DNA of 64,000 nt from an uncultured Spirochaetaceae bacterium (GTDB taxonomy: Bacteria > Spirochaetota > Spirochaetia > Sphaerochaetales > Sphaerochaetaceae), in contig CALXMP010000001.1 of the NCBI GenBank assembly GCA_944389505.1, positions 248,001 through 312,000 of the forward strand, read 5' to 3'. Made by a program: the position numbers and the translations under genes. The notes beneath the pieces are model-generated. The model had not been told where the DNA came from. It was given only the letters and a program-made list of their open reading frames with translations, and searched no databases. Positions within the stretch are counted from its first letter, which is position 1. Each line of letters opens with the position of its first letter. Shown one piece after another: positions 17,051-62,985 of the stretch.

Positions 17051-17857
17051 TCACTTAGTCAGCCATTCGATTCTTCTATCAAGCATTGCCTGAACATATG
17101 GCTTTCGCCAGAGGAAATCATAGCCATGCACGGTCCCTTTGGTCTCAGTAAGCGTTACAGATGCTCCTGATTTCCTCAGTTCTTCAGCGATTGCAATACC
17201 TTCATCATGGAGTGGATCATATTCTGCCGTCTCGACATACGCTCTTCCGATTTCCGATACATCATATGCCGGAACCTGCTGTCCATTAAAATAGCTCTTC
17301 ACCATCCATCTGTTGTTCCTGCTGTTCCACATCGGAGTGGATTCATACAGTCTCATTGATTCAGTCTCCTCTCCGGCCATCACCACTGGATATATGAGCA
17401 TCAGGTCAGGTTTCTTTTCCAATGCTGATACGGTATGGATGGCAAGGAATCCTCCAGCGCTATCACCCTCAACCACAGACAGGTCGGGAATGCTCTCTGC
17501 CAGTGCGATAAGCTTCTCCAGCGCTTCTGGATGATGGTGGAATGGAAGAAGAGGATAGTCCGGCATGATTACTCTGTACCCTGCTTTTGCATACATGGAT
17601 GCATTCTTCTTATGGTACGGGGCTGCAGGAGAGGCGAATGCGCCTCCATGTATGGATAGCAGAGTTCCTCTCTCAGCGCTATCTGAAGAGAAAATACTGC
17701 ATTTCATCCCAGAGATGCACAGGACTTTTTCCTCCACTCCCGGGACAGGCCGCACGAACGGAAGAAAGAGACGCAGGATATGCGAGAAGAGAGCAAAGGC
17801 ATTATTCATGCGGTAATGCATGAATCTGAGTATCCGTAACTCCCTGTTAAGCTCCAT
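17051..17857 (-). CDS. Alpha/beta hydrolase, HSL-type esterase
   Basis: 268 aa. SIHGGAFASPAAP (oxyanion HGG), VVEGDSAGGFLAIH (nucleophile Ser in GDSAG), ETAEYDPLHDEG (Asp) and GTVHGYDF (His) give a full catalytic triad in hormone-sensitive-lipase order. Predicted to hydrolyse a small ester; the substrate is unknown. Converges on the lipoprotein gene 16 bp away. Confidence 0.82.
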   Translation of the reverse strand: MELNRELRILRFMHYRMNNAFALFSHILRLFLPFVRPVPGVEEKVLCISGMKCSIFSSDSAERGTLLSIHGGAFASPAAPYHKKNASMYAKAGYRVIMPDYPLLPFHHHPEALEKLIALAESIPDLSVVEGDSAGGFLAIHTVSALEKKPDLMLIYPVVMAGEETESMRLYESTPMWNSRNNRWMVKSYFNGQQVPAYDVSEIGRAYVETAEYDPLHDEGIAIAEELRKSGASVTLTETKGTVHGYDFLWRKPYVQAMLDRRIEWLTK

Positions 17858-27289: not shown

Positions 27290-27344
27290 TATAACTCCGA
27301 TACAAAGACTTGATGCTTATCGCCTTTGCCTATACGATATTCCT

Positions 27345-28358
27345 ATGTCCGAATACAAACTGACAGGGCGTGCGAAGAGGATGATCAGGCTTTCTAGCAA
27401 GTTCCAGGCAAGGAATCCTGAGTCCCTTTCCGATGACCTGATAAACAATATAAACAACATGACAATAACAAGACGGGAGGCAAGAAGCGTGCTCTGCAGA
27501 TCAAAGCATGTGATGATGCAGACATTCGTCATTCCCGTCACGGAAGGTGCTGTCACAGGCTACTACTTCTCCGATCCAAAGCTCTCAGAGCTGACAGGTG
27601 TCATGCCTCTCATGATATTCTGCCATGGAGGCGGATGGGTATTCGGGAATATGGATTTCTATTCGATATTCCTCAGCCATCTTGCGGAGGTTACGGAGTC
27701 GGCAATCCTCCTCATCGACTACAGGCTTGCACCGAAATATAAGTTTCCTACCGCAGTTGAGGACTGCTACGATGCGGTTCTCTGGGCAGCAGAAGGGGCA
27801 AAATACTGGAAGATCGATACAGACAGGATCTTCATAGCAGGAGACAGCGCAGGAGGCAATCTTGCAGCTGTGACAGCAATGCTCCTCAGGGACAGGAAAG
27901 GTCCACAGCTTGCAGGACAGATCCTTCTGTACCCGATTACGGACTGCAGGCTCAGGACCCAGTCGATGACGGAGTATAAGGACAGCCCGATGCTCGATGA
28001 GAACATGCTCTCATTCTATGTGAAGAACTATGCGAGGGAGCCGAAGGATATACTCTCCCCAATGTTCTCTCCCCTCCTCAGCCCAGATCTCTCAAGGCTT
28101 CCGCAAGCACTCATCATCTCTGCGGAGATAGATCCTCTTGCCGATGATGGGATTCTCTATGGAAAGGCTCTTGCCGAAGCCGATACGAAATCAAATGTGC
28201 TGATTGCCAAGGGAGCTTTCCATGGCTTCATGCCATATAAGGATGCAATGGGAAGACGCGAAGGCGAGTGCGCGATAAGGCAGTTCACAGCTGGAAGACC
28301 TGTGGAGAACGTACAGTTCTGCACAGAACAGGAGCTGAGGAAAGGCCGCCCTAACTGA
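27345..28358 (+). CDS. Alpha/beta hydrolase, HSL-type esterase/lipase
   Basis: 337 aa from MSEYKLTGRAKRMIRLSSKF; the frame stays open back into the MATE gene but that part is not protein-like. HGGGWVFGN (oxyanion), IAGDSAGGNLAAV (nucleophile Ser), SAEIDPLADDG (Asp) and GAFHGFMPY (His) form a complete triad. The N-terminal ~90 residues are a helical cap. Weak ribosome site; TATACG lies eight bases before the ATG. Confidence 0.85.
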   Translation: MSEYKLTGRAKRMIRLSSKFQARNPESLSDDLINNINNMTITRREARSVLCRSKHVMMQTFVIPVTEGAVTGYYFSDPKLSELTGVMPLMIFCHGGGWVFGNMDFYSIFLSHLAEVTESAILLIDYRLAPKYKFPTAVEDCYDAVLWAAEGAKYWKIDTDRIFIAGDSAGGNLAAVTAMLLRDRKGPQLAGQILLYPITDCRLRTQSMTEYKDSPMLDENMLSFYVKNYAREPKDILSPMFSPLLSPDLSRLPQALIISAEIDPLADDGILYGKALAEADTKSNVLIAKGAFHGFMPYKDAMGRREGECAIRQFTAGRPVENVQFCTEQELRKGRPN

Positions 28359-28361
28359 ATA

Positions 28362-28466
28362 GCCATTAGGAAAGGGCCAGCACCGGAAATAAGGTGTGCG
28401 CTAGGCAAAAGGTTATAAGGGGGATCGCTTAGCATGGACTCCAGTGCTGGTCCTTACCGCAATGGC
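28362..28466. other. ~105-nt foldback element, candidate structured RNA
   Basis: Both ends are complementary. 28362-28367 (GCCATT) pairs with 28461-28466; 28369-28383 pairs with 28444-28458 with one A-A mismatch and one wobble. Inside, GGA (28385-28387) pairs with TCC (28440-28442), and GCTAGGC (28400-28406) with GCTTAGC (28427-28433) around a 20-nt purine-rich loop. It starts four bases after the esterase stop. I do not recognise it as SRP, 6S, tmRNA or a known riboswitch; a short inverted-repeat (MITE-like) element is the alternative. Confidence 0.5.
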
Positions 28467-28628
28467 CATACATATCCGATTCTCCCTCTACTCCCTTTTC
28501 TTGTCAATAATTTTATACACAGATTATTCGATTGATACGATTTTATTGATTTCTGACAGAAAAGTCAGGAAACCTGATTGCACATTCCAGCGATCGAAAA
28601 ACCAGGGACAACCTGCCATAATAGAGCC

Positions 28629-29066
28629 ATGACACCTGAAGAGCGCAGCTACAATATGTCGAGGATACGCGGCAAGGATACATCAATCGAGAAGATGCTA
28701 TCCAGGGCGCTGTGGCATCGCGGGCTACGGTTCAGGAAGAACAGTCCTTCAATCTATGGGCATCCAGATATCTCAATAAAGAAATACAGGATCGCCATAT
28801 TCTGCGATGGTGATTTCTGGCATGGATGGAACTGGGAGGAACGGAAGGACTCTATCAAGTCAAACAGGGACTACTGGATTCCGAAGATTGAGCGCAACAT
28901 GCAGAAGGACATAGAGGTGAACCATGCCCTTACCGCTATGGGCTATACTGTCATAAGAGTATGGGAACATGAGATACGGAAGAATCCCGATGCTGCCGCT
29001 GACATGATAATAAGGACAATCGACGAAGCTAAAGCCAGGCTCACTGCTGCTTCGCGAAAGCAATGA
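28629..29066 (+). CDS. Vsr-like DNA mismatch endonuclease
   Basis: 145 aa from MTPEERSYNMSRIRGKDTSIE. The very-short-patch-repair fold is clear: YGHPDISI carries the catalytic Asp and FCDGDFWHGWNW the catalytic His, with WEHEIRKNP near the C-terminus. The cysteines that bind structural zinc in E. coli Vsr (GCFWH-x3-C) are absent, as in a subgroup common in anaerobes. Vsr nicks at T:G mismatches made by m5C deamination, but no cytosine methyltransferase lies in the window. Its 3' end overlaps the ROK gene by 26 bp, tail to tail. Confidence 0.82.
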   Translation: MTPEERSYNMSRIRGKDTSIEKMLSRALWHRGLRFRKNSPSIYGHPDISIKKYRIAIFCDGDFWHGWNWEERKDSIKSNRDYWIPKIERNMQKDIEVNHALTAMGYTVIRVWEHEIRKNPDAAADMIIRTIDEAKARLTAASRKQ

Positions 29067-62910: not shown

Positions 62911-62912
62911 TG

Positions 62913-62985
62913 TGGGCCCTGCTGGATTTGAACCGGCGACCCAAGGATTATGAGTCCTTTGCTCTAACCGCTGAGCTAAGAGCCC
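62913..62985 (-). tRNA. tRNA with CAU anticodon, probably Ile2 (lysidine type)
   Basis: A full cloverleaf of 73 nt: acceptor GGGCTCT/AGGGCCC, D arm with TTAGCTCAGCGGTTAGAGC, anticodon arm AGGACTCATAATCCT (CAU), T loop TTCAAAT. The T stem has one C-A mismatch and CCA is not encoded. The D arm and anticodon arm resemble E. coli tRNA-Ile2 more than elongator tRNA-Met; initiator is excluded (no GGG/CCC anticodon stem, paired 1-72). Confidence 0.88.

Follow-up and report, generated by a model that had tools for sequence, protein, structure and literature searches.

What is the compact foldback that lies behind an esterase gene of an uncultured spirochaete, and from which strand might it be read? 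The window, i.e., the whole stretch of DNA analysed here (64,000 nucleotides), carries an alpha/beta-hydrolase (esterase) gene on its plus strand (27339 to 28358; Pfam PF07859, E 9e-63), and sequence inspection located its stop codon TGA at 28356-28358. The foldback starts just after it. The preliminary description had delimited it at 28362 to 28466, with two outer stems and an internal stem; the outer stems are formed by approximately 28362-28387 and 28440-28466. Both outer stems, GCCATT/AATGGC of 6 bp and AAGGGCCAGCAC/GTGCTGGTCCTT of about 12 to 14 bp, were recovered in the MFE structure of the plus strand, as was the inner helix GCUAGGC/GCUUAGC with its single G-U pair, confirming the fold as described. 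The MFE was -47.5 kcal/mol, whereas dinucleotide-shuffled sequences averaged -31.1 (z -5.1), and none of 200 shuffles equalled it. The minus strand (28473-28362) folds nearly as well (MFE -43.6, z -4.4).

The element had been left without an RNA family, and an Rfam search at gathering and permissive thresholds likewise matched no family. Matches to mir-354, snoR64a and AaHKsRNA41 were far under the gathering threshold and were taken as chance. The bacterial small SRP RNA (RF00169) was discarded as a candidate, as the SRP RNA of this genome lies elsewhere (G000:C3:20480-20577, E 3e-15). The sole RNA gene found in the window by Rfam or ARAGORN was a tRNA-Met(CAU) on the minus strand (62912-62985). 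RF00013 had no match in 24 genomes of the genus (G000-G023), whose 6S RNA is either lost or very diverged.

We searched for homologues by several routes. A DNA search of 60 relatives recovered five copies, two of them close (99% and 88%) and three weaker, each behind the same alpha/beta-hydrolase gene, at its 3' end. A covariance-model search detected the element in 10 of the 48 genomes of the genus, and an eleventh, divergent homologue (G027) was found by inspecting the DNA that follows 30 esterase orthologues. The element is thus present in 11 of 48 species, about a quarter, always in the same place, whereas the esterase family occurs in 47 of the 48 genomes. A second, distant member of that family is encoded in the window on the minus strand (17084-17662; G000:C1:265084-265662; 32% identity). 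With a second covariance model, a sample of 395 genomes of the class yielded no copies beyond the genus, and none were found in the viral contigs searched; named records with the core motif were MAGs of uncultured Spirochaetaceae or Spirochaetales. Within the genus, the pattern TTGACA...TCCCCCYTKAT, which by design skips the UUAU variant of the window, matched the known sites and two others. In these searches the element was thus confined to a single genus of uncultured spirochaetes. The esterases of G028, G061 and G027 share 75%, 71% and 63% identity, respectively, with that of the window. On a 29-row esterase tree, which leaves out G027, the distribution of carriers requires three changes of state. 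These changes, taken with the presence of a copy in G027, which is more distant, fit an old element that was lost several times, an order of events that we infer.

The preliminary description had favoured an RNA over a DNA repeat, and the proposed examination of copy number and covariation in relatives supported this reading: the foldback is present once in the 2.12-Mb genome, is syntenic, and shows compensatory changes in its outer stem. In a nine-row alignment (A5), 88.7% of the tested pair cells hold standard pairs, a proportion that falls to 33-43% when the partners are slid by 1 to 3 columns, and the covariation score exceeded that of all 500 shuffles. The outer helix (columns 3-15 with 83-95) is paired in 92% of cells and includes four pairs changed on both sides, a small number of independent changes given the few lineages among the aligned sequences. 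The inner helix is paired in 83% of cells, and none of its pairs is changed on both sides. Strong folds were obtained for representatives of every lineage (z -3.3 to -9.6).

The earlier inference from a wobble pair needed correction. The plus-strand G-U corresponds to A.C on the minus strand, and the minus strand has a U.G pair of its own in eight of nine homologues, which on the plus strand would read C.A. Summed over the tested pairs, 165 of 186 cells pair on the minus strand versus 156 of 186 on the plus strand; with so slight an advantage, wobble alone cannot settle the strand.

On the minus strand, just upstream of the hairpin, a conserved promoter spans 28479 to 28507, with TTGACA at 28507-28502, a 17-nt spacer and GAGAAT at 28484-28479, scoring 10 of 12 matches in a consensus scan. 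All 11 homologues display an exact TTGACA followed 17 to 18 nt on by an xxxAAT box in that position. TTGACA and the spacing of about 17 nt are kept although esterase identity is as low as 63% (G027), and in the clade of the window the promoter spacer diverges, with TTGACAAG and GA(C/G)AATCG unchanged. As far as sequence can tell, the 11 homologues thus have the promoter of their own that characterizes trans-acting bacterial sRNAs. In clade B, spacer and -10 box together read GTGTGCGGTAATTC, and the RNA contains the complement CGCACAC; the spacer of G027 holds an inverted repeat, TGCACATTATGTGCA, possibly an operator (loci L017-L020 and L063).

Minus-strand U-tracts follow the stem in G035 (CTTTTTTT) and G027 (TTTTTCTTTTTT); G027 has a full intrinsic terminator on that strand, and T-runs flank its hairpin on both sides. 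Most homologous copies have a U-tract on neither side. The conserved promoter, the U-tracts of G035 and G027 and the slightly better wobble fit indicate that the transcript is probably read from the minus strand, so that the RNA following the esterase on the plus strand, as the preliminary description implied, is probably wrong. The predicted sRNA of about 112 nt would occupy 28360 to 28473 (minus) and is supported by its fold and by the covariance-model hits and the divergent G027 copy; its 5' end is placed approximately 6 nt past the -10 box. No U-tract follows the stem in the window copy, and the 3' end is placed only tentatively, at about 28360.

The change of strand also affects what would be the functional loop. 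On the minus strand, the purine-rich loop AAGGGGGAT noted earlier is complemented by the C-rich AUCCCCCUU, probably the genuine loop. The stem sequence differs between lineages, and two blocks are kept, one in the apical loop and the other on the 3' side. The apical region (28403 to 28432, minus; CTAAGCGATCCCCCTTATAACCTTTTGCCT) contains the C-rich loop, the best conserved unpaired part, with the consensus CGA(A)UCCCCC(C/U)U across nine distinct homologues and UCCCCCUUGAU in G027. The other block, AGCGCACAC (28394 to 28402, minus), covers the 3' strand of the inner helix plus the internal loop after it; it is identical in all nine rows (A5 columns 60-68) and absent from G027. In the latter the stem is entirely different and only GUCCCCCUUGAU is kept, with UCCCCC retained. 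In clade B, fold prediction suggests that some of the loop bases may pair with one another. A minus-strand reading frame from 28435 (MLSDPPYN...) was rejected as coding, because it is not kept among homologues: it runs for 9 codons to a stop in clade B, is shifted in G066 and has no ATG in G061. This comparison indicates that the loop is conserved as nucleotides, not codons.

Altogether, the promoter, hairpin, covariation, loop conservation and synteny read from these sequences make an sRNA gene on the minus strand likely. A sigma-70-type promoter (TTGACA-17-GAGAAT) would start an RNA of about 112 nt near 28473, which is predicted to fold into one long hairpin. The stem would protect the RNA and, in some species, double as a terminator, and the tip would present an unpaired C-rich stretch, CGAUCCCCCUU, with 5 to 6 C. 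In mycobacteria, where no Hfq/ProQ-type chaperone is known, the C-rich loops of B11/6C pair with ribosome-binding sites (PMC10470900). By analogy, the loop described here may pair in trans with G-rich ribosome-binding sites and block translation without Hfq. This proposal was made because a stable hairpin with 5 to 6 C and the lack of a detectable Hfq fit the 6C/B11 mode: a search for Hfq (PF17209) gave no match in five genomes of the genus (G000, G028, G027, G061 and G009), and the control search found it in five known genomes. Potential targets were sought by simple mismatch matching of 16-18 nt. In the genome of the window this yielded 19 sites at up to 3 mismatches, versus 12 with the reversed control, none of them convincing; one is the sRNA gene itself, and nearly all lie inside reading frames. 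Likewise, the search in five relatives gave no convincing conserved site or complementary start-codon site. Also weighing against the reading are the restriction of the element to about a quarter of the genus, the lack of a U-tract in the window copy and the possible internal pairing of the clade B loop. Taken together, the sRNA gene and its Hfq-independent C-loop mechanism are a tentative reading to which we give slightly less than an even chance. That the RNA founds a new family of broad, chaperone-free translational regulators with a single C-rich loop, arisen independently of the actinobacterial 6C RNA, is a more doubtful extension, possible but rather unlikely.

The surroundings of the element could point to another function. 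The predicted sRNA sits in the gap between the convergent esterase gene and a divergent gene on the plus strand for a vsr-like mismatch endonuclease (28632 to 29066; Pfam PF03852 Vsr, E 5.7e-28), beyond the sRNA promoter. In the window, a module of about 270 bp (28359-28632) with the RNA and its promoter parts esterase from vsr. The hairpin could be a cis-acting bidirectional terminator and insulator of transcription between the two genes, with the minus-strand promoter driving convergent transcription, antisense to the terminal part of the esterase gene. The hairpin of G027, with its T-runs on both sides, would stop transcription in both directions, and in many relatives devoid of the element where vsr follows (L037, L040, L041, L042, L045, L046, L050-L053 and L055), esterase and vsr almost touch or overlap, as in one operon. 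However, a pure terminator needs neither a conserved promoter nor an invariant C-rich loop and AGCGCACAC, and U-tracts are missing on either side of most copies, so that we regard this explanation as unlikely. The two separate invariant blocks could also point to a protein-binding or structural RNA whose C-rich loop and AGCGCACAC would contact a protein instead of mRNA, and the equally stable plus-strand fold to an RNA released by cleavage from the esterase mRNA at its 3' end. The former is at odds with the absence of AGCGCACAC from G027, the latter with a promoter and terminators on the minus strand, and we judge this pair of explanations just as improbable as the insulator.

It might be argued that the element is a 6S RNA, a decoy of RNA polymerase, that is peculiar to the genus and has diverged strongly. 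As in 6S RNA (RF00013), a single long hairpin provides a long closing stem, an internal bubble or loops and an apical hairpin, and RF00013, which matches none of the 24 genus genomes, does match 7 other families of the class. Nevertheless, the element is shorter than known 6S RNAs, has no 6S match at E 5 (region) or E 0.5 (homologues), is best conserved in its apical loop rather than in a central bubble, and was not found in most genomes of the genus, all of which would be expected to carry 6S; this identity is thus very unlikely. The preliminary description had offered a MITE-like element as its alternative. A terminal inverted repeat and presence or absence between species would be in keeping with that or another mobile inverted repeat, but we rejected it as having next to no probability: there is one copy per genome, at the same orthologous site in diverged species, with a covarying stem, and no direct repeats occur in 28340-28650.

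We retain the sRNA reading and would place the RNA among C-rich-loop sRNAs, a known kind, as a new family absent from Rfam whose function we infer. Hardly any small RNAs are known from uncultured spirochaetes. If the proposal is true, it adds what appears to be an independent instance of the chaperone-free C-loop strategy seen in mycobacteria and Helicobacter, and the predicted sRNA is a defined RNA for which metatranscriptomes could be screened.

In RNAIII of Staphylococcus aureus, an RNA of about 514 nt with many hairpins that is also an mRNA, C-rich hairpin loops pair to Shine-Dalgarno regions; the window RNA shares the C-rich hairpin loop, but it is predicted to be about 112 nt long with one long hairpin. 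6C RNA/B11 of Actinobacteria, which we take to be RF01066, is similarly a stable hairpin RNA showing C-runs in its loops. However, 6C has two C-rich loops and the window RNA one, the phylum and the stems are different, and the 6C covariance model matched neither the window nor the homologues at permissive thresholds. RepG of Helicobacter pylori uses the loop of its own terminator hairpin, whereas in the window RNA the C-run caps a longer hairpin made of two parts, and no Rfam or sequence relation between the two was seen. RepG targets G-repeats in mRNA leaders (PMC8295292). The best reading by analogy is that the spirochaetal RNA may act in the manner of mycobacterial 6C/B11 or H. pylori RepG while being a member of neither family.
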